A stretch of DNA of 64,000 nt, taken from Acidisoma cellulosilyticum (GTDB lineage Bacteria; Pseudomonadota; Alphaproteobacteria; Acetobacterales; Acetobacteraceae). The stretch spans positions 124,001-188,000 of the forward strand of contig NZ_JAESVA010000007.1 of the NCBI RefSeq assembly GCF_020621385.1, in the 5' to 3' direction. Below the pieces are notes generated by a model. That model made no database searches. It saw only the letters and a list, made by a program, of their open reading frames with translations, and was not told where the DNA came from. Positions 50,859-64,000 of this stretch are shown piece by piece. Positions within the stretch are counted from its first letter, which is position 1, and the number at the start of each line of letters is the position of its first letter. The position numbers were made by a program, and so were the translations under genes.

Positions 50859-50933
50859 CGGGTAGACCCGCGGAACAAGTCCGCGGGCGATACTTTTCTT
50901 CGTCATCCGCGCAGTCGTTGCGCGGACCTACCC
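50859..50933. repeat. palindromic intergenic repeat, family 2, clean pair
   Basis: Two intact elements in opposite orientation: CGGGTAGACCCGCGG-aacaagt-CCGCGGGCGATAC (50859-50893) and GTCATCCGCGC-agtcgtt-GCGCGGACCTACCC (50902-50933). The second overlaps the end of the minus-strand gene, whose TAG stop (CTA at 50928-50930) is part of the repeat. Confidence 0.8.
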
Positions 50934-52100
50934 GGTGGCGCTGGCGGAACGGGCCATGAACGCCAAAATCGCTTCGGCCCCGCGCTCCCCGGCCGGGGTT
51001 TCGGTCATCGAAAACGTCAAATCCCGTCGTAATTCTTGTGCAGTCTTGAACGCGTCCGGATTGGTGATCGCCCGGTCAAGCGCGGCCGGTAGCGCATCGA
51101 CACGGGTGATGACCTCGCCCAGCGACCAATGGCCGAAATCGGGGGAGGTTGCGCGATCCTCCCCGCCGGTATTGAAGAAGATCGCCGGACGCGGTTGCGC
51201 GATCCACTCATAGATCTGGCTTGAGACGTCGCCGAGATAGATATCGGCCGCGCGCGTATAGCTCATGTCGACGGAGCGCCGGCTGCCGGTATCGATGCGG
51301 ATGCGCGGATGATCGAGCAGCGTTTTCGGCAGGTTGCCACGCCAACCGATGCGCTTGTGGATGGGCGTGATATGAATCGCGCGCTTGAACAGCATGGTAT
51401 GCGGCGCGAAAATCAGGTTGAAGCGATCCTGTTGCGCGAACCAATCCAGCACGGCGCGTCCGAAGGGATAAAAGGACGAAATATGCGGATTGAAATGCGG
51501 ATTGTAGACGACCGTCGGCAGGTCGTTGTCAAAGAAGCGCTCGACCGGCCTTCCGAGCGCAATATCGAATTTGGGATAGCCGATGATGGCGTGGTTGTCT
51601 GGGGTGATCAGTCCCCCTGACAGCATCCGGTCCCGCACCTTCTCACCCGACAGCAGCACCAGGTCGAAATGGCGCGTGGTCTTGCGGAAGCCGGCCGCAC
51701 CGTCACCGGCGCCATGCGGGATATAGATCAGTTTCGGTGCGCTGACACCGAAGCGGGTGCGCAGCAACGTCGTCGTCGTCTCCGGCACGACGATGGCGTC
51801 GAAACTGCCGAGAAGGGTCGCATGTTCGCGTAAGATAGCGATGCGCTTGAAGGGCAAGACAGGCCGCAGCAGATGATCCGCCAAGCGGTTCGGCCAGCTG
51901 AGCGTCAGGTCATGGAAGGTGACGGCGGTGCCCGGCGCAGCGACGCCGGGCGCAATCAGACTCGCCGCCGTCTCTCGCTGCTCGGCGCTCGATGTCAGCA
52001 CATGCACATCGACACCACGCGCCGCGAGGGCGGAAGCCACCGGGATCGTATGCGGGATCTGGTGGACGGCATCGTGATTATAGAGGAAGGCGATCTTCAT
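50928..52100 (-). CDS. TagF-like / GT-B-fold polyol-phosphate or glycosyl transferase
   Basis: 390-residue soluble protein with a GT-B-like layout. It begins KIAFLYNHDAVHQIPHTIPVASALAARGVDVHVLTSS, and the C-terminal half contains YIPHGAGDG, YNPHFNPHISSFYPFGRAVLDWF, LIFAPHTMLF and DIYLGDVSSQIYEWIAQPRPAIFFN. The paired His motifs and DVSSQ-E segment are typical of CDP-glycerol glycerophosphotransferases (TagB/TagF), which move glycerol phosphate to a lipid-linked acceptor. Its start overlaps the stop of the GINT1-like gene (ATGA), so the two are one operon that diverges from the acyl carrier protein and serine palmitoyltransferase genes. A role in adding a headgroup to ceramide is inference. 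The stop codon lies in a repeat element. Confidence 0.68.
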   Translation of the reverse strand: MKIAFLYNHDAVHQIPHTIPVASALAARGVDVHVLTSSAEQRETAASLIAPGVAAPGTAVTFHDLTLSWPNRLADHLLRPVLPFKRIAILREHATLLGSFDAIVVPETTTTLLRTRFGVSAPKLIYIPHGAGDGAAGFRKTTRHFDLVLLSGEKVRDRMLSGGLITPDNHAIIGYPKFDIALGRPVERFFDNDLPTVVYNPHFNPHISSFYPFGRAVLDWFAQQDRFNLIFAPHTMLFKRAIHITPIHKRIGWRGNLPKTLLDHPRIRIDTGSRRSVDMSYTRAADIYLGDVSSQIYEWIAQPRPAIFFNTGGEDRATSPDFGHWSLGEVITRVDALPAALDRAITNPDAFKTAQELRRDLTFSMTETPAGERGAEAILAFMARSASATG

Positions 52101-52999
52101 GCGGCTTTCGCCAGCTTATGCCGAAGGATGTGATAGAGCCGAGACACCGTCGCCGGCAGCGAGGCATCCATCCGCTTGACGTCGAGCAGCGTCATCTCCC
52201 CCACGGCCGAGAGCGTATGCAACCCGTCCGTATAGGGTGTCATCCAGGCGGGCGCTTGCAATCCGTCGCGGTCTGTCGCGGCGAAGGCGGTCTCGTCGAG
52301 ATGCGCAATCTCCAGAAGACGGATCGCGGCGCCGTAGGTTCTGCGGCAATCCTGAACTGGTAGGATGATCGATCCACCTTGCAGGATCGGCGTGCCGCCC
52401 GGCCGCGCGCTGGCGATGTCGATATGCACCGGATTGCCGGGATGGAGATGCCAAGGTCCGGTCAGACGATCGGCATAGGCGATGTGAAGATGGCTCTGCT
52501 TCGCGCGCTTGCTGTGCGATGGCGCATAAAACAGCCACCAGCGGTCTTGCCAGAAGAAGGGCGTCGCATCGATGGCGGCCCCGTCCAGCGGGATCTGGCA
52601 CACGGCCTCCCATTCACCGGGAAACGTCTTGGCGCGGTAGAGCGTCAGCGTGCCGGACTGGAAGGCTTCCGGCAGCATCCAGATCTCCCCCTCCGCCTCG
52701 AACACGAAGGGGTAGGACAGATGCCAGGGTTCCCGCAGCACCGTGCGGCTGTCGAGCAGGGTCAATTGCGCATCATAGACAAGAAGGTCGATATAGCCCC
52801 GGCGGTCGCGATAGCTGAAACCTTCGGCGAAGACATGCAACAGGCCGTCGCGCCAGAGGCCGAAGGGATCGGCCCGGAAGGATTGCGCCGGCATTGCTGG
52901 CCCCCAGGTGACGCTTGGCTCATCAAACCCTTCCGCCAGGATCGCGGTCAGCGGGCGGTTGATGATCGCGACACGCCAAAGATCCATCGGCCGCAGCAT
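52097..52999 (-). CDS. GINT1 N-terminal-domain-like protein (beta-propeller glycosyl enzyme family)
   Basis: 300-residue protein resembling the N-terminal domain of plant glucosamine inositolphosphorylceramide transferase 1, a family also present in bacterial surface-glycan loci. Motifs: QSFRADPFGLWRDGLLHVFAEGF, REPWHLSYPFVFEAEGEIWMLPEAF, AIDATPFFWQDRWWLFYAPS, GPWHLHPGNPV, and GGSIILPVQDCRRTYGAAIRLLEI, typical five-bladed glycosidase-like repeats. The ATG at 52999 (MLRPMDLWRVAII) is preferred over an upstream start at 53032. It is first in an operon with the TagF-like gene, divergent from acp-spt. The link to sphingolipid glycosylation is suggestive because the domain name comes from a sphingolipid enzyme, but catalytic activity is unproven. 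Confidence 0.68.
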   Translation of the reverse strand: MLRPMDLWRVAIINRPLTAILAEGFDEPSVTWGPAMPAQSFRADPFGLWRDGLLHVFAEGFSYRDRRGYIDLLVYDAQLTLLDSRTVLREPWHLSYPFVFEAEGEIWMLPEAFQSGTLTLYRAKTFPGEWEAVCQIPLDGAAIDATPFFWQDRWWLFYAPSHSKRAKQSHLHIAYADRLTGPWHLHPGNPVHIDIASARPGGTPILQGGSIILPVQDCRRTYGAAIRLLEIAHLDETAFAATDRDGLQAPAWMTPYTDGLHTLSAVGEMTLLDVKRMDASLPATVSRLYHILRHKLAKAA

Positions 53000-53173
53000 T
53001 CTCGCCTCAATCCTTCCTTCGAGAGACCCCATCCTGAGGGCAAAGCGGGGGTCAGCGTGACGGTCGGAGACCCATGGCAGGGGTCAGGACCATGCATGTA
53101 CCGCTAGATGCGACCGACCGACATTCGTGATAGAGGAGATCCAGAAAATCGATAGGACTGTCCGTGTCATGCC

Positions 53174-53476
53174 ATGCGCACGGACGCTTTTAGTCATGGA
53201 GACAAGACCTTGCCCAGCGAAGAGGACGTCATCGCGACGATTGTCGCGGTAATCCGCACCCTGGACGGCGTGACCCCCGCCATGGCGGATGCCGTGACGC
53301 CCGAGACCAATATCCTGCGCGATCTCAGCCTCGATTCCATCGCGGTGATGGATTTCATCATGGAGCTGGAGACCGCCTTCAACACCGTCATTCCGCTGGA
53401 TACCGTGGCCGAAATCGCGACCGTCGGCGATCTCGCCCGGGCGATCACGACCGAACAGGCGCGGACTGCCGCCTGA
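53174..53476 (+). CDS. dedicated acyl carrier protein of the sphingolipid locus
   Basis: 100-residue acyl carrier protein. The phosphopantetheine attachment serine is in LSLDSIAVMD (Ser55), flanked by helices EEDVIATIVAVIRTLDGV and MELETAFNTVIPLDTVAEIATVGDLARAI. It is longer at the N-terminus than housekeeping AcpP; a TTG at 53210 could give a shorter form. It ends one base before the serine palmitoyltransferase start. In Caulobacter and related bacteria a dedicated ACP is encoded beside spt and carries the fatty acyl group that is condensed with serine. It is presumably charged by the fatty acyl-AMP ligase encoded at 62867. Confidence 0.88.
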   Translation: MRTDAFSHGDKTLPSEEDVIATIVAVIRTLDGVTPAMADAVTPETNILRDLSLDSIAVMDFIMELETAFNTVIPLDTVAEIATVGDLARAITTEQARTAA

Positions 53477-53477
53477 T

Positions 53478-54686
53478 ATGCTCGGAAAATATGCGCATCT
53501 CGCCCAGTCCCTGTCGGGACTGCGCGAGGCTGGCACCAATCCCTTCACCGTCGCCTTCGACGAGATTCTGTCGCCGACCACGGCGCGGCTGAACGGCCAG
53601 ACCGTCGTCCTGCTCGGGACCAATAACTATCTCGGCCTGACCTTCGATGAGAGCTGTATCGCGGCAGCGGTCTCGGCGCTTGAGACCGAAGGCACCGGCA
53701 CCACCGGGTCCCGCATCGCCAACGGCACCTATAGCGCGCATGTCGCGCTGGAAAAGCAGGTCGCCACATTCCTTGGCCGGCAGGATGCGATGGTCTTCAC
53801 GACCGGGTATCAGGCCAATCTTGGCATCATGGCGGCGTTGGCCGGGCGCGACGATCATCTTCTGCTCGATGCCGACAGCCATGCCAGCATCTATGACGGC
53901 TCGCGCCTCAGCGAAGCGCAGGTGACGCGATTCCGCCATAACGATCCGGACGACCTCTATCGCCGCTTGCGCTATCTGGCCGATAAGCCGGGCGACAAGC
54001 TGATCGTCGTCGAAGGCATCTACAGCATGCTGGGCGATGTGGCGCCCTTGGCCGAATTCGCTGCCGTGAAGCGCGAGACGGGCGCCTATCTTCTCGTCGA
54101 TGAGGCGCATTCGCTGGGTGTGCTCGGCGAACACGGCCGTGGCCTTCAGGAAGTGGCGGGCGTCGAGGCGGATGTCGATTTCGTCGTCGGCACCTTCAGC
54201 AAAAGCCTAGGCAGCATCGGCGGCTTCTGTGCCTCCGACATGCCGGGTTTCGAGGTGCTGCGCGTCGCCTCCCGCGCCTATATGTTCACGGCCTCGATGC
54301 CGCCGTCGATCGCGGCGAGCGTGACCCAGGCTTTCGAGGTGATGGCCGCGCGTCCGGACCTGCGGCAGGCGCTGACGCGGAACGCGGAGGCTCTGTATCA
54401 GGGTCTGTCCAAGGCCGGGTTCCGCCTGGGCCCGACGCCGAGCCCGATCGTCTCCGTCCGGCTGACCAAGCCGGAGCTTGCGGTCGCCTTCTGGAACAAG
54501 CTTCTGGCGCGCGGGCTTTACGTCAATCTGGCTTTGCCGCCGGCGACGCCGGCGCGCGAATCTCTTCTTCGCACCAGTGTCAGCGCCGCCCATAGCGAAG
54601 CCGATATCCGCTTCGCGGTGGACGCCATCGCCTCCGTCGGCGAGGAGCTCGGTATCATCGGGGCGACGGTCGAAGCGGCGGAATAA
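53478..54686 (+). CDS. spt: serine palmitoyltransferase (alpha-oxoamine synthase family)
   Basis: 402-residue pyridoxal-phosphate enzyme that condenses serine with a long acyl chain to 3-ketosphinganine, the first step of sphingolipid synthesis. The cofactor lysine is in TFSKSLGSIGG (Lys242), the stacking histidine in DADSHASIYDG (His135) and the DEAHSLG motif (208-214) is intact. The segment GTGTTGSRIANGTYSAHVALE and the lack of a glycine/acetyl-CoA pattern favour serine palmitoyltransferase over KBL or ALA synthase, and the neighbouring acyl carrier protein supports it. It is soluble and about the length of the Sphingomonas enzyme. The Tam41-like gene ends tail-to-tail two bases away. Confidence 0.9.
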   Translation: MLGKYAHLAQSLSGLREAGTNPFTVAFDEILSPTTARLNGQTVVLLGTNNYLGLTFDESCIAAAVSALETEGTGTTGSRIANGTYSAHVALEKQVATFLGRQDAMVFTTGYQANLGIMAALAGRDDHLLLDADSHASIYDGSRLSEAQVTRFRHNDPDDLYRRLRYLADKPGDKLIVVEGIYSMLGDVAPLAEFAAVKRETGAYLLVDEAHSLGVLGEHGRGLQEVAGVEADVDFVVGTFSKSLGSIGGFCASDMPGFEVLRVASRAYMFTASMPPSIAASVTQAFEVMAARPDLRQALTRNAEALYQGLSKAGFRLGPTPSPIVSVRLTKPELAVAFWNKLLARGLYVNLALPPATPARESLLRTSVSAAHSEADIRFAVDAIASVGEELGIIGATVEAAE

Positions 54687-54688
54687 GG

Positions 54689-55576
54689 CTAGCTGAGCGC
54701 GCCTATCCTTCTGAGCCGCCAGAGTAGGAACGGGGCGGCGAGGATCGGGTGGCGGCGCTGCCAGGGCGAAAGCTCCAGGCGGACGCCGCTATGGCGCTGC
54801 AGCTTCCACAGCAGATAATCGGCGCCGCCGGCGAAGGTGAAGGCGGCTTTCACCAGCCGCAGCAGATTGAGCGGCTTGCCGCAGAAGCGGCGCAATGCCC
54901 AGCCGCCGAACGGGGCCTTGGCCGCCGGATGCCCTCCGGCATCGAACAGCCCGTCGAACCAGGCGGCATTGGTCTCATACAGCACGCTGGGCTGGTTCGC
55001 TCGCTCCGGCCGCAGCTCCGCCCGATAGGTTTCGCGGAAGAGCCCTTCCCAGACAGTACCCGCGTTTTCGGCGGCCGGGTTCAGCCAACGTCCCCAGGCG
55101 AGCGCGGTGCCGGCGGCTTGCGTCAGCAGGGCGGTCACGCGTTTTCGTGCCGCATCATCGCGTGCATAGAGGAGAGACGACGGCTGGGAAAAGCGCGTCC
55201 AGATCGTGGTGTCGAGCGAGCCTGGCCGCACGCGACGGTCGAATTGGCGGACCGAGAGCATGGCGACCTTGGCGCGCAATCCATCAGTCCCGGCCCCAGC
55301 GGCCATCAGCATGACATTGGGCGGCAGTGCCGCATTCATCAGCGCCGGAAAGGCGCGCCGATGAAAGGCGCGATGGCCATCGTACAGAATATAAAGATCG
55401 ATGAGACCGGTCAGATCGCCCGTCCGACGGCAGGAGCCATAGAACAGAATAGCCGCAACCGCTTTGCCTCGGCTGTCGAGAATCTCCTGGACCAAGGCGG
55501 CCATTGCCGGTGGGGCAGGGCGGTCCAGTTCCGCCGCGATCAAAGGCCCGAGCGCCTGTTCGGCGCCCACGGTCAT
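54689..55576 (-). CDS. Tam41-like nucleotidyltransferase-fold protein of the sphingolipid locus
   Basis: 295-residue protein with a nucleotidyltransferase-type motif: ILFYGSCRRTGDLTGLIDLYILYDG (residues ~44-67), i.e. GS followed by a D-x-[DY]-like acidic strand, as in mitochondrial-type phosphatidate cytidylyltransferase Tam41. The rest has VMLMAAGAGTDGLRAKVAMLSVRQF and an arginine-rich C-terminus with amphipathic helices (FLLWRLRRIG) that may touch the membrane. The second acidic position reads LIDLYI, so the usual DxD is D-L-Y and activity may differ. The start is uncertain (55576, or 55636 overlapping the kinase gene). It follows the lipid kinase on the same strand and probably acts on the phosphorylated lipid or its headgroup. 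Confidence 0.65.
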   Translation of the reverse strand: MTVGAEQALGPLIAAELDRPAPPAMAALVQEILDSRGKAVAAILFYGSCRRTGDLTGLIDLYILYDGHRAFHRRAFPALMNAALPPNVMLMAAGAGTDGLRAKVAMLSVRQFDRRVRPGSLDTTIWTRFSQPSSLLYARDDAARKRVTALLTQAAGTALAWGRWLNPAAENAGTVWEGLFRETYRAELRPERANQPSVLYETNAAWFDGLFDAGGHPAAKAPFGGWALRRFCGKPLNLLRLVKAAFTFAGGADYLLWKLQRHSGVRLELSPWQRRHPILAAPFLLWRLRRIGALS

Positions 55577-55586
55577 AAGGCGGATG

Positions 55587-56567
55587 TCACGGGGCGACGA
55601 CCGTGACGCTGGCGGCCGCAGAGAGAAGAACACCACCCGAGCGGGGCTCGAAAGCCTCCCCGTCCAGAATAAAAGGCTGGGTCAGCATCAGGCGCAGCGC
55701 ATTGCCCCGACCGGAGCGGTAGCCGCCGCGTAGCATCCAGGGTTTGGGGCGGCGCATCAGCATATTGGTGAGCCCGGCGACAAGGCGCCGGGGCGAGGCG
55801 TCGATATCCAGCCAGCGGATGCCGCCCTGACCCTTGCCCCAGAAAGGCCAGAGGCCGAGCATGAGGCTGTCCAGCGTTGTCGCCATCACCAGCATGCGCT
55901 GACCGTCGATCGCTGGGCGATCACCCACCGTCAAGGTCATCGGCCAGCCCTGTTTGATGGCGGGGTCGCGGCCGAGAATGGCGCGCAGCGCCGTCAAAGT
56001 GACGGTCGCGGCGACCTCCGCCCCATGGCGCAGCCCGCCGCCGCGCACGGCCGCATTGGCGGTGCGCTTGACCTCGGTGAAGCTCGCCGCGCCGAACAGG
56101 AAGCCGAAGATGGGGTCGCGCGCCGGTTCGTCCGGCCAGGAGACCTGCAGCAGCGGGCAGACCTTGCGGGTCAGCCGGTTCTGAGCTGCCGCGATGAGAA
56201 TCTTTTCGAGGGCGGCGCTGTCGCTGCCGGCACTGCCCAGAACGCGGGCCGCCAGATTGGTATTGCCAGCCGATAGAATGGCGATCTCAGGCATGTCGTC
56301 GGGATAGGCGTGCGGCATGGCGCTGATGACGTCGCGCAAAGTGCCGTCGCCGCCGCAGACGATCAGCAGCGTCACACCGTCCGCCGCGAATTGGGCGAGG
56401 GTCTTGTGCAGTTCGGGCAGACCATCCGGAGAGGCTGCCTGCACTTCAGGGTGGCGTGCCAGGACCGCGGTGAAGTCGGCCGGCTTCGTCTTGTTGGCGT
56501 GGCTGCGCGGATTGATAATCAACCCGATGCGCCGGGGCGCCTGCGTAGAAGAGGTTATCTGACCCAA
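55587..56567 (-). CDS. diacylglycerol/ceramide kinase-family lipid kinase
   Basis: 326-residue protein of the DAGK catalytic-domain family. IGLIINPRSHANK is the N-terminal strand, VCGGDGTLRDVISAM (GGDGT at 72-76) the ATP-binding signature, IAILSAGNTNLAARVLG the NDLAR-type motif, and the C-terminal domain contains GILLSAAASV-like strands and IDGEAFEP-like FILDGEAFEP. Bacterial relatives phosphorylate diacylglycerol, undecaprenol or ceramide. In this locus the likely substrate is ceramide or sphinganine; a kinase of this family does that job in the Caulobacter ceramide phosphoglycerate pathway. The start is TTG at 56567, whose last base abuts the ATG of the divergent phosphoesterase. Confidence 0.82.
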   Translation of the reverse strand: MGQITSSTQAPRRIGLIINPRSHANKTKPADFTAVLARHPEVQAASPDGLPELHKTLAQFAADGVTLLIVCGGDGTLRDVISAMPHAYPDDMPEIAILSAGNTNLAARVLGSAGSDSAALEKILIAAAQNRLTRKVCPLLQVSWPDEPARDPIFGFLFGAASFTEVKRTANAAVRGGGLRHGAEVAATVTLTALRAILGRDPAIKQGWPMTLTVGDRPAIDGQRMLVMATTLDSLMLGLWPFWGKGQGGIRWLDIDASPRRLVAGLTNMLMRRPKPWMLRGGYRSGRGNALRLMLTQPFILDGEAFEPRSGGVLLSAAASVTVVAP

Positions 56568-57499
56568 TGCAATTCAGCCTTGCCCATCTCTCCGACCTGC
56601 ATCTGCCGCCCCCGGCGGAAGCGATGTCGATGCGGGATCGAAATCTGAAAAGCGTCCTTGCCAAACTGTCTTGGCACAGGAAGCGCAAACGAATTTACAC
56701 ACTGCACCCGGCCGCGGCTTTACTTGCCGATATCGCGGCGCAGGCACCCGATCATATTGCCCTGACAGGAGACATCACGAATTTCGGCCATCCGGCGGAA
56801 TTCGTGGCGGCTAGACGCTATCTCCAACAGATAGGAGCACCGCATGATCTTTCGGTAGTTCCCGGCAATCATGATCGGACAGTTCCGTTGCCATGGCAAG
56901 ATAGTCTTGAGCAATGGCAAGACTGGATGTGCAGCGATGCAGAAGAAGCCGTCTTGAGCGAGGGGGGATTTCCTTTCCTGAGACGTAGAGGCGATCTGGC
57001 GATTATCGGGGTCGATTCGGCCATTTTGACCCCGGTCTTTAAGGCCTATGGCGAGATCGGCATGACTCAAATGCACAGGCTGGCAGAGCTGCTGGAGGCA
57101 ACCGGACGCCAGGGGCTGTTCCGTGCCGTCCTCATCCATCATCCCCCGACCATGAGCCTGGGCGGGGAACGCAAGGCACTGCGCGACCGGGCTGCGCTAT
57201 GCGCGGTTTTGGCGCAGCATGGTGCTGAGCTCATGATTTCAGGCCATCACCACATCACTCGATTGGATGGAGTGCAGGGGCCCAGCTATAGAATTCCCTC
57301 TTTCGGCGTGCCGGCGGCTTTGGCGAGCAAAGCGCGGCCCGAATGGGCTGGTTGGCATCTGCATCGCATCGAAAGGGTGGAGAGCGGTTGGCATCTCACC
57401 TCCGCCCTGCGTCGCTACAATCCGATACGCAATGTGTTTGAGCCTGGTGGGGAGTGGAGCTTCAGGCTTCCCGTCAGAACGGATGCAATGACATGGTGA
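56567..57499 (+). CDS. calcineurin-like metallophosphoesterase of the sphingolipid locus
   Basis: 310-residue two-metal phosphoesterase. All five motifs are visible: SDLHL (Asp10, His12), ALTGDITNFGHP, VVPGNHDRT, VLIHHPP and MISGHHHITR. It hydrolyses a phosphate mono- or diester; in this position the candidates are a nucleotide-linked headgroup donor or a lipid phosphate. No signal peptide, so it is cytoplasmic. Its ATG overlaps the divergent kinase start codon by one base, leaving no space for promoters between them, and its 3' end overlaps the convergent DUF2141 gene by 26 bases. The Tam41-like/kinase/phosphoesterase trio resembles the set I recall beside spt in Caulobacter. Confidence 0.85.
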   Translation: MQFSLAHLSDLHLPPPAEAMSMRDRNLKSVLAKLSWHRKRKRIYTLHPAAALLADIAAQAPDHIALTGDITNFGHPAEFVAARRYLQQIGAPHDLSVVPGNHDRTVPLPWQDSLEQWQDWMCSDAEEAVLSEGGFPFLRRRGDLAIIGVDSAILTPVFKAYGEIGMTQMHRLAELLEATGRQGLFRAVLIHHPPTMSLGGERKALRDRAALCAVLAQHGAELMISGHHHITRLDGVQGPSYRIPSFGVPAALASKARPEWAGWHLHRIERVESGWHLTSALRRYNPIRNVFEPGGEWSFRLPVRTDAMTW

Positions 57500-57977
57500 T
57501 GTGGGCACCTGCCGCCGTCACGGTGAAGGCGACGGCGTGAAAGCCCGGCGGCGCCAGCAGATTGCGCGGATTGTTGGAGAAACCGTAATCCTCGGCCGGC
57601 AATCCGAGGAAAGTCTTGTCGAAGCGGTGGTTGTTATTGGCGTCGTCATAGATCGCCACCGCATAGGTGCCAGGACCCGAGAGCGCGAAACAGCCCTGCA
57701 CGCTATTCGCTGTGACCGGCACGCGCATGATGTCGATGCTGCCGTGATGGGCCAGGAATTTGGCCGGGTCGTCGCCATAGAGCGTGAAGGTGATATTGCC
57801 CCCGGCATGGCGGATATTGGTGACGGTCATCAGCAGGCGCGGCGCCGAGGGCGACACGCCGGGCGCGTCACAGGCGACGCCGGACTCTGTCGCCGCCAAG
57901 GCGGGAAAATCGCCTGAAACGCCTAACAGAAGCCCAATCAGACAAGCCATAAGCCAGCGGCCGGGCGCAAATGTCAT
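57474..57977 (-). CDS. DUF2141 periplasmic protein
   Basis: 167 residues. A signal peptide spans about residues 1-29 (MACLIGLLLGVSGDFPALAA). The mature domain shows the DUF2141 pattern: VTNIRHAGGNITFTLYGDDPAKFL, VQGCFALSGPGTYAVAIYDDANNNHRFDKTFLGLPAEDYGFSNNPRN and a final beta strand. Function unknown. The DDANNNHRFD acidic loop looks able to bind calcium, which is my reading only. It lies in the sphingolipid locus between the phosphoesterase and the LptF-like gene, and being periplasmic could take part in lipid export or surface assembly. Its end overlaps the convergent phosphoesterase gene by 26 bases. Confidence 0.8.
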   Translation of the reverse strand: MTFAPGRWLMACLIGLLLGVSGDFPALAATESGVACDAPGVSPSAPRLLMTVTNIRHAGGNITFTLYGDDPAKFLAHHGSIDIMRVPVTANSVQGCFALSGPGTYAVAIYDDANNNHRFDKTFLGLPAEDYGFSNNPRNLLAPPGFHAVAFTVTAAGAHITMSLHPF

Positions 57978-58211
57978 CGGAACTCAGCCTCGAGGCAAGA
58001 ATACATGACGCGGATCACGCGACTGAATGATATTGCGACGCAATAGCATTGGAGGTCATAACAGTCAGCACACCAGCGCATGATGGCGGGCAGTCTCGCC
58101 GCCGTGACCTTTTTCTGCAAGAAGACCTTATCATCATCGGGCGCCCGGCGATCCATCGCCCTCGGCACCGACGCCGACTGGAATGAAACGGTAGATCTCT
58201 TGGGCTTTTCT

Positions 58212-59444
58212 GTGCGCGCCCCTCACGCGCGGTCCCCCCGCACGCTGGAACGCTATCTTCTGTCGCTCTGCGCCCGCCCTTTCGCGGCGACGTTGCTCGT
58301 GGTGCTGCCCGCGCTGCTGCTGGAGCGCCTGCTGAGGCTGTTCAACCTGTTGGCCGACCAGAACGTGCCGGCCCAGTTCGTCGGCCGCATGCTGGTCGAT
58401 CTGGTGCCGCAATACCTGGGTCTGGCCCTGCCGGCGGCGCTTTTCCTGGGTATCTACTTCGTCATCGCCCGGATGAGCGCCGATAACGAGTTGGAGGCGA
58501 TGCAGAATGCCGGCCTGTCCATGGTCTGGATCAGCCGTCCCTTCTTCATCCTCGGCTTCCTGCTCATGCTGGTCGCCTATGGGCTCTACGGCTATGTCCA
58601 GCCGCTGGCGCGCTACGCCTTCCGCGAGGCCTTTTGGGCCGCGACCGAAAGCGGCTGGAACGCGACCATTCCACCCGGCCAGATCATCCATGTCTCGAAA
58701 AACCTCGTCGTCACGGCCGATGGCGCCGAGCGCGGCACCGGCGCGCTGCGGCATGTGCTCGCCTTCCAGCGCAAGACGGATGGGACCGAGCAGGTGACGA
58801 CCGGCGTCACCGGAACCGTCTCCCTGGTCGGCCGGGGCGCCGATGTCCTGCTCACGCTCGACAACGGCAAGCGGCTGGATCTGAAGCCCGACGGCACGAT
58901 CGGCACCGAGACCTCGGCGACCTCGGCGATGGAGCGCCCCTTCGTGCTGCCGATGCGCGCCTTTCGCGCGCGGGGCAGTGACGAGCGCGAGATGACGACC
59001 GGCGAACTTTGGTCCGCGCGCCACGACAAGAATCCTCCGCAGCCGCTGCGCCGGATGAACGGTGAGCTCTACAGCCGCATCATCCGGTCGATCTCCATGG
59101 CGGTGCTGCCTCTGATGGCCGTTTCCATCGGCATTTCGGCCAAGCGCGCCAAGCGCCAATACGGCATCAGCGTCGGTTTCCTGATCCTGATCCTGTACGA
59201 TCACGCGATCCAACTGACGGCCGCGCTCGGCACGGCCGGGCTGATCGATCCGCGTGCGCCGCTCTGGGCGATTTTCGTTGTTTTTAGCGCTTTCTGCTTC
59301 TGGATGTTCCGCCGCGCCTCCCGTCATACCAGCGAGGGGCCGCTCGATCCGCTCTTCGCCCGGATGGAAGATGCGGCGTCCTTCTGTCTGCGCGGCGTGC
59401 GATGGCTGGGCGGCGGTTGGGCTCGGAAGCAGCCGGCCCGATGA
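58212..59444 (+). CDS. LptF/YjgP-family permease in the sphingolipid locus
   Basis: About 410-residue inner-membrane protein of the LptF/LptG family, which normally forms the half-transporter that extracts lipopolysaccharide for the LptB ATPase. The N-terminus RTLERYLLSLCARPFAATLLVVLPALLLERLLRLFNLLAD, the coupling-helix region ARMSADNELEAMQNAGLSMVWI and the central periplasmic jellyroll domain (about 150-280) are present. The C-terminal helices contain RIIRSISMAVLPLMAVSIGIS. The start is unclear: GTG 58212 gives a typical N-terminus, but the frame is open to ATG 58080. The gene overlaps the LptG-like gene by four bases. No lptB is in the window. Its position beside spt suggests a sphingolipid substrate. 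Confidence 0.85.
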   Translation: MRAPHARSPRTLERYLLSLCARPFAATLLVVLPALLLERLLRLFNLLADQNVPAQFVGRMLVDLVPQYLGLALPAALFLGIYFVIARMSADNELEAMQNAGLSMVWISRPFFILGFLLMLVAYGLYGYVQPLARYAFREAFWAATESGWNATIPPGQIIHVSKNLVVTADGAERGTGALRHVLAFQRKTDGTEQVTTGVTGTVSLVGRGADVLLTLDNGKRLDLKPDGTIGTETSATSAMERPFVLPMRAFRARGSDEREMTTGELWSARHDKNPPQPLRRMNGELYSRIIRSISMAVLPLMAVSIGISAKRAKRQYGISVGFLILILYDHAIQLTAALGTAGLIDPRAPLWAIFVVFSAFCFWMFRRASRHTSEGPLDPLFARMEDAASFCLRGVRWLGGGWARKQPAR

Positions 59445-60502
59445 TCCGCGCCTATCTCACCAGGCTTTTCCTCGGCCGGATGCTGGCGGCGCTGATCGGC
59501 CTCTCGGCCATGCTTCAGATCCTCAATCTGCTGGAGAATGCTGGCACCATCTTCGCCCATGGCGGCTTTCGGGACATCCTGCATTTCATCGCGCTGCAAC
59601 TGCCCGCCATCGTCAGCGAAATGCTGCCGCTCTCAGTCCTGATCGGCGCGCTGATGGCCTTCCGCCGCCTTGCGGCGGATCTGGAGGTCACGACGCTGCG
59701 CGGCGCGGGGATGAGCCTGTGGCAGATGGTGGGCGCGCTGATGCCCGTCTGTCTGGTCCTTTGCGTCTTGCAATTCGCCCTGCAGAACGAGGTGGCGCCG
59801 AAGGCCGACCGCGCTTTCGCCAATTGGTGGGCGGCGACCATACCGCCCGCCGCGGATAGTCCGCCGCCGCGCATCTGGCTGCGCGCCGGCAGCGACGTTG
59901 CCGCCGTCGACAGCGTTTCCACGGACGGGCGCACGCTGCGCGGTGTGATGGTGCTGGAGCGTGACGGGCAGGGTGAGATCAGCCTGCGGCTGGACGCGCC
60001 GATCGCCCATTTCGGGCCGGCCGGCTGGGTGCTGCAGCAGGTCCGCGTCACCCGGCCCGAGGCCGCGCGGGTGCAGGATGTGGCGACGATGCCCTGGCCG
60101 CAGGGACCCGAGCCCGCCAATATGCAGGCGCTCGCCTGGCCCACGGATAGCATCACTTTGGGCCGCATCCTCGCCGTGCTGCACGGGCATTGGGCAGGCT
60201 CGCAAGGGCTTGGCTATTACCGGACGGAATTGCAGGCGGCCTTCGCCGCTTTGCTCAGCCCGATGATCATGCTGCTGCTGGCGGCCCCCGTTCTGCTCGC
60301 CCCGCCGCGCTCCACCGGCAATACGCGGGCGACCGCGACCGGCCTGGCGTTGGGCCTTGGCTTCGCTGCCTCGGCCGGGCTACTGAATGCCTTCGGCCAG
60401 TCCGGCGCGCTGCCGCCCTGGCTCGCCGGCTGGATGGCGGCGCTGTTCTTTTTCGCTTTCGCCTGCCTGCGTTTGAGCCAGGCGGACGACAGCGAAGCAT
60501 GA
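59441..60502 (+). CDS. LptG-family permease in the sphingolipid locus
   Basis: 353-residue partner of the LptF-like protein. It starts IRAYLTRLFLGRMLAALIGLSAMLQILNLLEN, contains the coupling segment MAFRRLAADLEVTTLRGAGMSLWQM, a periplasmic beta domain (about 125-250, with RIWLRAGSDVAAVDSVSTDGRTLRGVMVLERD) and three C-terminal helices ending ADDSEA. ATG 59441 overlaps the upstream stop as ATGA. Conventional lptFG genes usually sit with lptD or pepA; here they lie inside a sphingolipid biosynthesis locus, so this pair is probably a specialised copy rather than the housekeeping LPS exporter. A search of the rest of the genome would be needed to confirm a second pair. Confidence 0.85.
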   Translation: MIRAYLTRLFLGRMLAALIGLSAMLQILNLLENAGTIFAHGGFRDILHFIALQLPAIVSEMLPLSVLIGALMAFRRLAADLEVTTLRGAGMSLWQMVGALMPVCLVLCVLQFALQNEVAPKADRAFANWWAATIPPAADSPPPRIWLRAGSDVAAVDSVSTDGRTLRGVMVLERDGQGEISLRLDAPIAHFGPAGWVLQQVRVTRPEAARVQDVATMPWPQGPEPANMQALAWPTDSITLGRILAVLHGHWAGSQGLGYYRTELQAAFAALLSPMIMLLLAAPVLLAPPRSTGNTRATATGLALGLGFAASAGLLNAFGQSGALPPWLAGWMAALFFFAFACLRLSQADDSEA

Positions 60503-60581
60503 CATTTATTCAAAACAAGCCGGCTAATTTCCTTGACAGTCTTACGCGACAGGATGTCTTGCGACGGCTGAGGAGAAGGTA

Positions 60582-60890
60582 ATGCACAGGCGCTGGCGGA
60601 AGGAGGGCCGAGATATCGATCTCGGCCGCATGCTGTTGAAGGACCCTTGTCCGGCCGATGCCGTTCATCCAACCATCCCATTTGATGTTGTGCTGGCATT
60701 TATCGCGGGCGTCTGTGAGATTGGACTAGCGCCCGTCCTGCGGCGTCTGACGGATGCCCATCGCCTCATGAGTCGTTTCTGCGCTAGAACGGTGGAATTC
60801 TTCGTCGCGCGCGTCATGTCTGGTCCTATGCCGGGACGCTGTTACGCCTCCAGACGCAACCCGCTGTTCTGCTCCGGCGAGGCCAATTGA
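60582..60890 (+). CDS. doubtful 102-residue frame with a good ribosome site
   Basis: Open frame in the 390-base gap between the LptG-like gene and the ceramide-synthase-like gene. In its favour: GAGGAGAAGG lies at the right distance before ATG 60582 and the frame runs up to the next gene. Against: no family resemblance, arginine/cysteine-rich composition (RRWRKEGRD, SRFCARTVEFF) unlike a folded protein, and codon use poorer than its neighbours. A TTGACA at about 60532 could be a promoter -35 element for it or for the downstream gene. It could be a leader peptide or simply noise. Confidence 0.25.
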   Translation: MHRRWRKEGRDIDLGRMLLKDPCPADAVHPTIPFDVVLAFIAGVCEIGLAPVLRRLTDAHRLMSRFCARTVEFFVARVMSGPMPGRCYASRRNPLFCSGEAN

Positions 60891-60892
60891 TC

Positions 60893-62047
60893 ATGGCAAG
60901 CACGACATTCGGCGATATCGAGATTCTGTCCGTGACGGGGCCTGCGCTGCTCAAGCGCTTCATCCGTCTGCCCGACCGCATCATGGCGCCGGATCCAAAC
61001 TACATCCCGCCGCTGCATTCGGAACGGCAGGCGGCGCTGACGCCCAAGGGCAATCCCTTCTTCGGCCATGCCGACGCGGCTTTCTGGCTGGCGCGAAAGA
61101 ACGGCGTCGATGTCGGCCGTATCTCCGCCCAGATCGACCATCTGACGAAGCCCGAGCCTGAGGCGCCGATCGGCAATTTCGGCATGCTGTCGGCCATCGA
61201 CGACAAGGCGGTCTTCGCGGCGCTGCTGGCGACCGCCGAGGCCTGGCTCGCCGAGCGTGGCATCAAGCGTGTGCAGGGACCGTTCAGCCTTTCGATTAAT
61301 GAGGAATCGGGGCTGCTGATCGACGGTTTCGATACGCCGCCGATGCTGATGATGCCGCATGACGCGTCCTATGTGGCCGCGCATATCGACGCTGCCGGCT
61401 ATGGCAAGATCCGCGATCTTTATGCCTATCTCTGCGACACCACGGCCGCCTTGCCGCCGCGTTCGGCCGCCATGGTGGCGCGCGGATTGCCGAGCAACGT
61501 CACCCTGCGCCCGATGCAGTTCAAGACGCTGAAGCAGGACATCGCCTCCCTCGTCAGCATCTTCAACGATGCCTGGGCGACCCATTGGGGCTTCGTGCCG
61601 ATCACCGAGCCCGAGGTCGATCACATGGCCAAGGCCATGCGCCCGCTGCTGCATGAAAAGCTGATCTGGTTCGCCGATGTCGACGGCGAGCCGGCAGCCT
61701 TCGGCCTCTGCCTGCCCGATCTGAATGCCGCGATCCGCGATCTTTCGGGCAGCCTATTGCCGCTGGGCTGGGCCAAGCTGCTGTGGCGCCTGAAGGTTTC
61801 AGGCGTGCCGACCGCGCGCGTGCCCCTGATGGGCGTGCGCAAGCGTTACGGCGAAGGCATGCTCGGCCGGCTGCTGGCGTTGCATGTGGTGGAATCCCTG
61901 CGCCGCGAGGCCTTGGCGAAGGGCATCAAGGCGGTCGAAATGTCCTGGATTCTTGAGGACAATCTGCCGATGCGGCATTTGGCGGAAGCGGTTGGCGGCC
62001 GCCAGTACAAAACCTACCGCGTCTACGAGAAAACCCTCACGGCATGA
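60893..62047 (+). CDS. ceramide-synthase-like GNAT-type N-acyltransferase (bCerS/YghO family)
   Basis: 384-residue protein of the YghO-like N-acyltransferase family, to which the bacterial ceramide synthase of Caulobacter belongs. Motifs: FIRLPDRIMAPDPNYIPPLHSERQAALTPKGNPFFGHADAAFWLARKNGVDVGRISAQIDH at the N-terminus, the GNAT-like IGNFGMLSAIDDKAVFAALLATAEAWLAERGIKRVQGPFSLSINEESGLLIDGF, and the C-terminal second fold WATHWGFVPITEPEVDHMAKAM with AVEMSWILEDNLPMRHLAEAVGGR. It would N-acylate 3-ketosphinganine or sphinganine to ceramide. ATG 60893 is preferred over TTG 60887. It overlaps the next gene by four bases. Confidence 0.82.
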   Translation: MASTTFGDIEILSVTGPALLKRFIRLPDRIMAPDPNYIPPLHSERQAALTPKGNPFFGHADAAFWLARKNGVDVGRISAQIDHLTKPEPEAPIGNFGMLSAIDDKAVFAALLATAEAWLAERGIKRVQGPFSLSINEESGLLIDGFDTPPMLMMPHDASYVAAHIDAAGYGKIRDLYAYLCDTTAALPPRSAAMVARGLPSNVTLRPMQFKTLKQDIASLVSIFNDAWATHWGFVPITEPEVDHMAKAMRPLLHEKLIWFADVDGEPAAFGLCLPDLNAAIRDLSGSLLPLGWAKLLWRLKVSGVPTARVPLMGVRKRYGEGMLGRLLALHVVESLRREALAKGIKAVEMSWILEDNLPMRHLAEAVGGRQYKTYRVYEKTLTA

Positions 62048-62823
62048 CCGGCCCGGCCACACTGACGGCCCTGATTCTGGCCGGCAGCCGCGACGGGGCT
62101 GCCGATCCGCTGGCGATCCAGGGTGGCGTCTCGCATAAGGCGCTGCTGCCCGTGGACGGCACGCCGATGGTGCTGCGGGTCATTCGCGCGCTGCAACAGA
62201 GCCCTGCCGTCGGTCGAATAATCGTCGTCTGCGAGCGCAAGGATCTGCTCGATGACTTGCCCGAAGCCGCCTCTGTTGCGGTCCGTCACGCCGAGACTTC
62301 ACCAAGCGCCAGTGTCGCTGCCGCTTTGGCAGAATTCGGCACGCCGTTGCTTGTGACGACGGCGGATCATGCGCTGTTGACGCCTGAGATCGTAAAATCT
62401 TTTCTCTCCCTGGCGCCATCCAGTGCCGACGCTGTGGCCGCAGTGGCACGGTCGGAGATTATTTGCGCGGCTTACCCTGATACGCGACGCACATGGCTGC
62501 GTCTGCGCGACGGGCTGTTCAGCGGCTGCAACCTCTTCCTGTTGCAGCACGAAAAAGCCAGTCTTGCCGTCGTTTTTTGGCGAAAATTGGAAGCCCATCG
62601 GAAGCATCCCTGGACCATGGCGCGACTGATCGGTTTATCGGCGCTCGTCGGTTATGCATTCAAAACCTTGACAATGGACAAGGCAACTAGGCTTCTTAGC
62701 CGTAGAAGTGGTGCTTCACTTGCGGTTATTACTCTTCCTTTCGCGGATGCGGCGGTCGACGTCGATAAACCCGCGGATCTCTTCCTTGTCGAAAGGACTC
62801 TGGCGGCGCGACGTGCGGCCTGA
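62044..62823 (+). CDS. NTP-transferase (MobA-like fold) protein of the sphingolipid locus
   Basis: 259-residue nucleotidyltransferase with a GT-A-like Rossmann fold. The N-terminal signature is LTALILAGSRDG...HKALLPVDGTPMVLRVIRAL, the metal/nucleotide region VTTADHALLTPEIV (a T-A-D-H in place of the usual TGD) and the C-terminal FADAAVDVDKPADLFLVE is the typical final strand-helix. Relatives activate a sugar, polyol or lipid headgroup as an NDP derivative. The ATGA overlap with the ceramide-synthase-like gene points to coupled expression. It may provide an activated headgroup donor (for example CDP-glycerol-like) for the TagF-like transferase; this is inference. Confidence 0.8.
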   Translation: MTGPATLTALILAGSRDGAADPLAIQGGVSHKALLPVDGTPMVLRVIRALQQSPAVGRIIVVCERKDLLDDLPEAASVAVRHAETSPSASVAAALAEFGTPLLVTTADHALLTPEIVKSFLSLAPSSADAVAAVARSEIICAAYPDTRRTWLRLRDGLFSGCNLFLLQHEKASLAVVFWRKLEAHRKHPWTMARLIGLSALVGYAFKTLTMDKATRLLSRRSGASLAVITLPFADAAVDVDKPADLFLVERTLAARRAA

Positions 62824-62866
62824 GTTCTCCCTTATGTCAAACGTTGCTTAGTCTGGATCACCGAAT

Positions 62867-64000
62867 TTGGATCTCCATCTTTCGACTGGACCGACTCCCA
62901 CGCTGAGCGGGCTTGCTCTGCGTGCCGGTGATTTCAGAACTTTGCCCGAAGCGCTCGACTATGCGGCGGAGGGTCTGACTGGTCTCAACTTCTACTCCGC
63001 GCAGGGCGAGCTCAGCGAAGCGCTCGGCTATCGCGGTCTGCGCCACGATGCGATCGATCTTGCCTATCGGCTGATGGGCCTGGGTCTCACCCGCGGCGAC
63101 AGCGTCGCGATCATCGCCGAGACCAGTCCGAATTTCGTGCGGATCTTTTTCGCCTGCCAATATGCGGGGCTGGTGCCCGTGCCGATGCCGCTGCCCTTCG
63201 CCTTCGGCGGGCGCGAGACCTATATCGCGCATATCGAGCGGCTGGCGGATGAGGCTGAAGCGCGCGCGCTTTTCGCCCCCACGACGCTGATTTCCTGGCT
63301 GGCGCCGATGGCCGAGGCCCGCAGCATGCGCCTGTGCGGCACCGTCGCCGATCTCGCGGAGATGGAGATACAGGACGTCGTCCTGCCGGAGATTAGGCCC
63401 GAGGATACCGCCTATCTGCAATTTTCCTCCGGCAGCACGCGCTTCCCGAAGGGCGTCGTCATCCAGCAGAAAGCGCTGATGGCCAATGCCGCCGGCATTT
63501 TGGCCCAGGGCATGGAAATCGGCCCGCAGGACCGTGCCGTCTCCTGGTTGCCGCTGTATCACGACATGGGTCTGGTCGGCTTCCTGCTCAGCCCGCTCTG
63601 CGGTCAGGTGACCGTCGATTTCATCGCGACGCAGGATTTCGCGCGCCGCCCGCGCCTATGGTTGTCTCTGATCTCCCAGAACCGCGGTACGGTGTCCTAT
63701 TCCCCGAGCTTCGGTTTCGATCTTTGTACCCGCCGCCAGCGGACCATCGACCGTGACAGCCTCGATCTGTCGACCTGGCGCATCGCGGGCATTGGCGGCG
63801 ATATGATCCGCCCGGCCGTGCTCTCCCAATTCGCCGATACCTTTGGCAGCTGCGGTTTCAAGCCGGAGGCTTTCCTGCCGAGCTACGGCATGGCCGAGGC
63901 GACGCTTGCCATCAGCTTCGCGCCGGTGGGCCTGGGCATCGAGACCGAGACGATCGATCTTGACCGGCTGGAGCAGGACGGACTGGCCATGCCGCCGCAG
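62867..64000 (+). CDS. fatty acyl-AMP ligase / acyl-ACP synthetase, 3' end outside window
   Basis: The frame is open from TTG 62867 (an in-frame TAG lies at 62849-62851) to the right edge, giving 378 residues of an adenylate-forming enzyme. AMP-binding motifs: YLQFSSGSTRFPKGVVIQ, LPLYHDMGLVGFLLSPL and PSYGMAEATLAI, the pattern of fatty acyl-AMP ligases and acyl-ACP synthetases of about 550-600 residues. GGATCACC precedes the TTG; no ATG or GTG occurs before the first conserved helix. In sphingolipid loci an acyl-ACP synthetase loads the dedicated acyl carrier protein, here encoded at 53174, for serine palmitoyltransferase. The missing C-terminus should carry the lysine-containing small domain. 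Confidence 0.85.
   Translation, partial: MDLHLSTGPTPTLSGLALRAGDFRTLPEALDYAAEGLTGLNFYSAQGELSEALGYRGLRHDAIDLAYRLMGLGLTRGDSVAIIAETSPNFVRIFFACQYAGLVPVPMPLPFAFGGRETYIAHIERLADEAEARALFAPTTLISWLAPMAEARSMRLCGTVADLAEMEIQDVVLPEIRPEDTAYLQFSSGSTRFPKGVVIQQKALMANAAGILAQGMEIGPQDRAVSWLPLYHDMGLVGFLLSPLCGQVTVDFIATQDFARRPRLWLSLISQNRGTVSYSPSFGFDLCTRRQRTIDRDSLDLSTWRIAGIGGDMIRPAVLSQFADTFGSCGFKPEAFLPSYGMAEATLAISFAPVGLGIETETIDLDRLEQDGLAMPPQ

Follow-up and report, generated by a model that had tools for sequence, protein, structure and literature searches.

A Caulobacter-type gene set for a predicted acidic sphingolipid in Acidisoma cellulosilyticum, with an apparently mobile alternative headgroup branch

Ceramide synthesis in Caulobacter crescentus takes five genes, and the efficient formation of phosphosphingolipids requires another six (PMC11324152). 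In the soil bacterium Acidisoma cellulosilyticum (genus Acidisoma, Acetobacteraceae), a sphingolipid locus of largely the same order occupies the end of the 64,000-nucleotide stretch that we analyzed (contig NZ_JAESVA010000007.1, positions 124,001 to 188,000; G000:C7:124001-188000), here called the window, and extends past it to about 68005 in window coordinates. This locus raises a question: its core is of a known kind and some of its headgroup genes are not, so what lipid might it make? We conclude that it probably encodes a Caulobacter-type phosphosphingolipid pathway with an alternative headgroup cassette. Judged by sequence, it would be a complete gene set for an acidic, phosphate-containing sphingolipid destined for the outer membrane, in which the last headgroup step has been replaced by a different, apparently mobile set of genes.

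Proteins were placed in families using Pfam and NCBIfam profiles with their cut-offs, matches to the PDB, and fold comparison of predicted structures (VIA). The presence of the headgroup proteins CpgC and CpgA and of two variant families, GINT and GlyP, was surveyed in 200 Acetobacteraceae genomes, with close GINT homologues counted apart from more distant members of the GINT1_N family. First gene calls were poor in low-GC relatives (for example, G017), and later loci were called by homology. As a reference we used a Caulobacter-like locus from a survey of the class (G236), tied to the CC numbers of C. crescentus by gene order; it holds AasR, CerR, an acyl carrier protein (ACP), serine palmitoyltransferase (SPT), CpgC, CpgB, CpgA, a phosphoesterase, LptF2, LptG2, CerS, and CofC, and the Acidisoma genes are 29-56% identical to their counterparts there.

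The ceramide gene set of the Acidisoma locus is complete. Its SPT reached 640.6 bits with NF047599, the NCBIfam equivalog for SPT (cut-off 500), and its nearest solved structures are SPTs, the best being a bacterial one (2x8u). The dedicated ACP, AcpR, lies beside it, directly upstream of spt as in most related loci, and AasR, CerR, and CerS are present as well. A first-pass annotation of the window had grouped SPT, the dedicated ACP, the ceramide synthase, and the acyl-AMP ligase as the Caulobacter core, and both profiles and gene order agree. It had also reported the 3-ketosphinganine reductase missing from the window and pointed to the right of base 64000; there, just outside, an NAD-dependent epimerase-like reductase follows AasR. 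For SPT and CerS we left one locus (L108) out of the comparison because the genes labeled as such there are distant paralogues (34-36%). The same gene order recurs in the SPT loci of many genera, and the gene set is therefore more than a chance assembly.

The headgroup genes begin as they do in Caulobacter. CpgB (CC_1160) is the ceramide kinase, marked by a GGDG motif and by the absence of the eukaryotic CxxxCxxC (PMC10331486). The Acidisoma candidate carries GGDG at residues 72-75, where it is kept in 29 homologues, and lacks CxxxCxxC. Ceramide synthesis and phosphorylation by the locus, as predicted from these sequences, are well supported. In C. crescentus, the lipid CPG depends on CpgC (CC_1161); the second phosphoglycerate, giving ceramide diphosphoglycerate (CPG2), depends on CpgA (CC_1159), a CDP-alcohol phosphotransferase; and CDP-glycerate is made by CpgD (CC_1152), a CTP:phosphoglycerate cytidylyltransferase (PMC12275187). 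The Tam41-like CpgC homologue of the window has no Pfam match and its family profile met solved structures only in a weak nucleotidyltransferase-domain match (E=0.07), so its identification rests mainly on its place in the Caulobacter-type order. It keeps the invariant YG..D.Y signature, is 41% identical to the gene at the same place in the reference locus, and probably starts at the ATG at 55576; the CpgC profile finds matches across the class. The CofC-like protein reached 26 bits with the CofC model TIGR03552, under its cut-off. The lipid kinase, the Tam41-like and MobA-like nucleotidyltransferases, the phosphoesterase, and the DUF2141 protein of the first-pass annotation are thus all present; every gene that it listed is an intact frame, and Pfam and NCBIfam place all except the Tam41-like one. 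Whether the DUF2141 gene belongs to the pathway is uncertain: the Caulobacter authors considered its positional equivalent, CC_1157, probably unrelated, and the gene is kept in Acidisoma and in CpgA-type Acetobacteraceae and was not seen in the loci of acetous genera.

At the next step the two systems part. A CpgA profile search of the Acidisoma genome gave no match at E<=1e-15; the same profile hits six other genomes in the family at E<=1e-137. The CpgA place, between CpgB and the phosphoesterase, is empty of CpgA here, and because the headgroup genes differ in this way, the final lipid cannot be read from the Caulobacter pathway. No CpgD was found in the locus, where no search with CpgD itself was made; an IPCT-like gene lies on contig 4 beside a myo-inositol-1-P synthase.

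The locus holds, in addition, two paralogous genes that we call GlyPA and GlyPB, the GINT gene, and a Wzx-type flippase. GINT exceeds the PF24793 cut-off more than fourfold in bits (Table 1), stands alone, and ends after the propeller. Its model (pLDDT 94) is a five-bladed propeller whose nearest folds are GH130 phosphorylases and GH159, GH62, and GH43 enzymes (Z 19-22). It is not a plant-type GINT1 enzyme, since it has no GT64 match and stops after the propeller, nor a classical GH43 hydrolase: its PF04616 match is sub-threshold. Because the fold matches spread over GH130, GH159, GH43, GH62, and GH117, we assign it no activity. The model of GlyPA (pLDDT 86) has TagF as its top VIA match (Z 24.3, root-mean-square deviation 3.6, 317 residues aligned), and the GlyP family profile reaches TarL at E=0.01; we regard GlyPA and GlyPB, by sequence and model, as TagF-like, not as proven TagF/TarL members. 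The first-pass annotation had listed GlyPA and GINT as two transferase candidates. Both genes are there, the first encoding a TagF-like GT-B protein and the second a beta-propeller of the GINT1_N family; what it had not recognized is that they form the variant part of the locus and track the pathway across the family. In Acidisoma sp. L85 (G002), two tandem GINT genes (L037:10070-10987 and L037:12153-13073) are each paired with a GlyP gene, an arrangement which suggests that GINT and GlyP work as pairs.

How closely this variant branch follows the sphingolipid genes is seen in the family survey. CpgC is present in 54 of the 200 genomes. Close GINT homologues occur in 43 of these 54 and in none of the other 146 (Fisher 9e-34, kinship ignored), and all 38 genomes with GlyP also have CpgC. 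CpgA was found in six genomes, every one with CpgC and without GINT (chance 1.8e-5 by simple draw). At the level of genera, the 29 that have CpgC divide, without overlap or remainder, into 26 with GINT and three with CpgA. Many of the GINT genera are acetous and probably form one clade, so the independent events are far fewer than 26. Many acetous genera share one cassette, consisting of AasR, ACP, SPT, CpgC, CpgB, phosphoesterase, LptF2, LptG2, hydroxylase, CofC, in some cases a GT4 gene, and GINT. Among Acidisoma genomes, three carry SPT, CpgC, and GINT; two (G001 and G003) gave no SPT match, and G001 also lacks CpgC and GINT. Elsewhere in the GINT1_N family, two long proteins of 500-610 residues (L178:1486-3324 and L182:1468-2976) carry about 250 N-terminal residues without a Pfam match.

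Outside the Acetobacteraceae, Sphingomonas, Caulobacter, Phenylobacterium, Sphingobium, and Azospirillum were among the genera in which close GINT homologues turned up when named genomes were scanned. GlyP lies within the fetched flanks of 34 of 60 non-acetic GINT loci, often directly adjoining GINT, and CpgC is in all 40 tested GINT genomes, in orders where it is probably common anyway. In Sphingomonas populi and Sphingomonas sp. NFR15, GINT, GlyPA, and GlyPB are 57-65% and the flippase 45-46% identical to those of the Acidisoma locus, and the adjoining CpgB and CpgC just 31-38%; both strains lack CpgA. This disparity between the cassette (45-65%) and its neighbors suggests from sequence that GINT, GlyP, and flippase moved horizontally as a unit between sphingolipid producers.

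Taken together, these genes outline a possible route. AasR would load a fatty acid onto AcpR, and SPT, CerR, and CerS would make (dihydro)ceramide, which the CpgB-like kinase would convert to ceramide-1-phosphate. The CpgC homologue may then elaborate ceramide-1-phosphate, perhaps via CDP-ceramide, and the CofC-like enzyme may supply a nucleotide-activated donor, perhaps of phosphoglycerate. GlyPA and GlyPB, in place of CpgA, could transfer phosphopolyol or similar units, and the GINT propeller could modify the headgroup by sugar transfer or trimming. Finally, the flippase would turn the lipid over and LptF2/LptG2 would hand it to the outer membrane. The first-pass annotation had proposed a complete pathway for an acidic or glycosylated ceramide delivered to the outer membrane: synthesis, headgroup, and export genes do stand together, while glycosylation and the end of the pathway, where CpgA is missing, are not established.

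Several observations weigh against this reading. For Acidisoma it is known from genes alone, and the co-occurrence statistics lack a correction for kinship. Both GlyP proteins fall below the PF04464 cut-off (14.3 against 22.1 bits), and the TagF match of GlyPA is tied with UDP-GlcNAc 2-epimerases (Z 23.9). Twelve GINT genomes have no GlyP. More distant GINT1_N homologues, mostly in longer frames, occur in 15 Acetobacteraceae genomes without CpgC; in a genome lacking CpgC (G278), a stand-alone GINT1_N protein lies between a GNAT gene and a glycosyltransferase (L177:1405-2343), a distant exception. Outside the family, 31 of 40 genomes hold CpgA alongside GINT. The mutual exclusion of the two, which holds in Acetobacteraceae, therefore fails as a general rule, and GINT does not generally take the place of CpgA.

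The strongest competing reading assigns GINT, GlyP, and the flippase to a surface polysaccharide pathway (O-antigen-like or teichoic-acid-like) that merely neighbors the sphingolipid genes and shares their hosts. Many GINT loci do hold a Wzx-type flippase and GT4-type glycosyltransferases, the module lies away from SPT in most Sphingomonas, Caulobacter, and several Acetobacter genomes, and longer GINT1_N proteins exist without the sphingolipid pathway. Yet in Acetobacteraceae close GINT never occurs without CpgC, although so few genomes have CpgC; in many genera the sphingolipid cassette ends with GINT, adjoining CofC; and GINT and CpgA partition the genera. The strict co-occurrence with CpgC argues against the surface polysaccharide, and we consider it rather unlikely. 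Somewhat less likely still is that the locus makes CPG and CPG2 themselves by unrecognized substitutes for CpgA and CpgD, with GlyPA and GlyPB as the CPG2 transferases. No gene known to be required for CPG is missing, the CofC and phosphoesterase homologues are kept, and a TagF-type enzyme using CDP-glycerate would carry out equivalent chemistry, a TagD/TagF parallel having been drawn in the CpgD paper (PMC12275187). However, the profile search of the genome found no CpgA, no CpgD was seen in the locus, and the propeller and the second GlyP would have no role in CPG2. GlyP also stands alongside CpgA in three Acetobacteraceae genomes (G148, G164, and G198) and in G373 and G468, where, with CpgA present, it is not needed as a substitute. 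A third reading, in which the SPT-like gene encodes 2-amino-3-ketobutyrate CoA ligase (KBL), BioF, or ALA synthase and the locus is unrelated to sphingolipids, can be dismissed as extremely improbable, and with it the KBL/ALA synthase placement that the first-pass annotation had named as refuting its own inference: the fold family is common to all, but the BioF and KBL scores (330 and 317 bits) lie under their cut-offs (426 and 460), as does ALA synthase, the SPT equivalog is well exceeded, and the other four ceramide proteins accompany the gene.

This leaves a Caulobacter-type phosphosphingolipid pathway with an alternative headgroup cassette as the best explanation. A more specific claim we put forward as a tentative possibility: GINT and the flippase, together with GlyPA and GlyPB, would form a mobile cassette for a phosphosphingolipid headgroup, so far undescribed, of Acetobacteraceae and some Sphingomonas, and the GINT1_N protein would act directly on that headgroup. 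If true, plant and bacterial phosphosphingolipid decoration share a protein family.

Compared with known systems, the locus shares AasR, CerR, AcpR, SPT, CpgC, CpgB, the phosphoesterase, LptF2, LptG2, CerS, and the CofC-like gene with C. crescentus CC_1168-CC_1152 (CPG/CPG2), in largely the same order, and both have a flippase nearby. The gene-order comparison called for by the first-pass annotation bears out an order shared with Caulobacter and with the SPT loci of many genera. In contrast to C. crescentus, Acidisoma has no CpgA in the genome, no CpgD or LptC2 was seen in the locus, and the locus has two TagF-like genes and a gene for a GINT1_N propeller in addition. With TagF/TarL polymerases (PF04464), the GlyPA model shares the GT-B fold, in a match tied with that to UDP-GlcNAc 2-epimerases, and the sequence is weakly similar to TarL; unlike them, GlyP is a bare GT-B protein of 370-390 residues that scores below the Pfam cut-off, and its acceptor is presumably a sphingolipid. 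In plant GINT1 (glucosamine inositolphosphorylceramide transferase 1), a GT64 catalytic domain follows GINT1_N. The GINT1_N family is common to the plant and Acidisoma proteins, and both act or may act in decorating phosphosphingolipid headgroups, but the Acidisoma protein has no GT64 domain. The shared name is no evidence of a shared reaction, because GINT1_N also occurs in bacteria without the pathway. The glycosphingolipids of Sphingomonas and Caulobacter (Sgt1, Sgt2) are likewise ceramide-based anionic lipids from the same bacterial class, with the sugar directly on ceramide (PMC6445935); no Sgt1/Sgt2 homologue was identified in the Acidisoma locus, where no comparison with Sgt1/Sgt2 was made. 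The acetic acid bacteria belong to the same family; the published accounts that we consulted list only the ceramide core, with GOX2056-GOX2058 of Gluconobacter oxydans being SPT, AcpR, and AasR (PMC9386255). In related genomes we find the cassette to reach CpgC, CpgB, LptF2/LptG2, CofC, and often GINT. Acetous genera differ from Acidisoma in that CerS and CerR are mostly elsewhere and the hydroxylase gene is kept. As far as the openly accessible literature goes, the core of the locus is of a known kind, and the new elements are the alternative headgroup branch and the way in which, in Acetobacteraceae, it and CpgA partition the genera.

The export genes also point to a sphingolipid. The genome holds six LptF/LptG genes in three pairs. 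LptF2 of the locus shares 40-47% identity with its counterparts in the nearest other SPT loci, with no other pair of its own genome among the best matches, and LptG2 is 38-45% identical to its equivalents there and 28% to its own copy on contig 1 (C1). The pair noted in the first-pass annotation is thus distinct from the other two, which supports a role, predicted from sequence, as a sphingolipid-dedicated exporter, such as has been proposed for Caulobacter LptF2/LptG2 (PMC11324152). No LptC2 was noticed in the locus; no genome search was made for it. The third pair adjoins a gene group on contig 4, outside the window (G000:C4, L032:9881-17083), that encodes a myo-inositol-1-phosphate synthase, a nucleotidyltransferase of IPCT/MobA-like type, and a CDP-alcohol phosphatidyltransferase; genes for a glycosyltransferase and a flippase are close by, and the group is possibly a separate locus for inositol-phospholipid synthesis and export.

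Downstream of LptG2 lies the remnant of a fatty-acid hydroxylase gene that has lost its histidine-box part. In other Acetobacteraceae the gene is intact at this place, between LptG2 and CofC or CerS (homologue PF04116 E=1.2e-19). It is a standing member of the cassette in the family (L124:16788-17600 and most acetous loci) and in Caulobacter-like loci, and a candidate for ceramide hydroxylation. Beyond the flippase gene, a small exported protein and a glycosyltransferase resembling family 2 are encoded (68081-69482).

Table 1 Genes of the Acidisoma sphingolipid locus, in window coordinates.
Gene or product	Position	Strand	Basis
GlyPA, TagF/TarL-like GT-B transferase, first of two paralogues	50928..52100	-	weak PF04464, 14.3 bits; TarL profile E=0.01; model
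GINT, stand-alone GINT1_N-family five-bladed beta-propeller	52097..53032	-	PF24793 E=1.3e-33, 116.8 bits, cut-off 27
AcpR-like acyl carrier protein dedicated to SPT	53174..53476	+	PF00550 E=1.6e-11; DLSLDSIAV site
Serine palmitoyltransferase (SPT)	53478..54686	+	NF047599 640.6 bits; PDB 2x8u E=6.5e-125
Tam41-like nucleotidyltransferase, CpgC (CC_1161) homologue	54689..55636	-	YG..D.Y signature; position; 41% identity to Caulobacter-like locus
Ceramide kinase candidate, CpgB / CC_1160 homologue	55587..56567	-	PF00781 (DAGK_cat) E=4.6e-14; GGDG
Calcineurin-like phosphoesterase at CC_1158 place	56567..57499	+	PF00149 E=1.6e-11; 40% identity to Caulobacter-like locus
DUF2141 protein, likely exported, at CC_1157 place	57474..57977	-	PF09912 E=3e-26; hydrophobic N-terminus, segment at residue 8
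LptF2	58080..59444	+	PF03739 E=3.7e-56
LptG2	59402..60502	+	PF03739 E=2.4e-64
FA_hydroxylase remnant, N-terminal ~52 codons recognizable	60582..60737	+	tblastn E=2.5e-10 to homologue in L108
Ceramide synthase, CerS / CC_1154-like GNAT acyltransferase	60887..62047	+	PF00583 E=1.7e-06; 45-76% identity to same-place genes of related loci
CofC/MobA-like nucleotidyltransferase, CC_1153 homologue	62044..62823	+	PF12804 (NTP_transf_3) E=3.6e-18; 43% identity in Caulobacter-like locus
AasR fatty acyl-AMP ligase / acyl-ACP synthetase	62867..64618 (past window end 64000)	+	AMP-binding; NF006624 813.8 bits, cut-off 600
CerR, NAD-dependent epimerase-like reductase (outside window, after AasR)	64615-65562		Epimerase PF01370 E=1e-19
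GlyPB, paralogue of GlyPA (outside window)	65543-66661	-	PF04464 14.3 bits, below cut-off 22.1
Wzx-type flippase (outside window)	about 66704-68005		PF01943 E=2.5e-12

What would such a lipid mean for the cell? In Caulobacter, anionic CPG2 can take over part of the role of lipopolysaccharide, sensitizes the cell to polymyxin, and has been connected with virulence toward insect larvae (PMC12275187, PMC11324152). An exchangeable headgroup branch would mean that bacteria vary their sphingolipid much as they do lipopolysaccharide, and that acetic acid bacteria may make an undescribed lipid. The split of 29 genera between CpgA and GINT leads to predictions that lipid mass spectrometry can address directly, and it gives stand-alone GINT1_N proteins a testable role.

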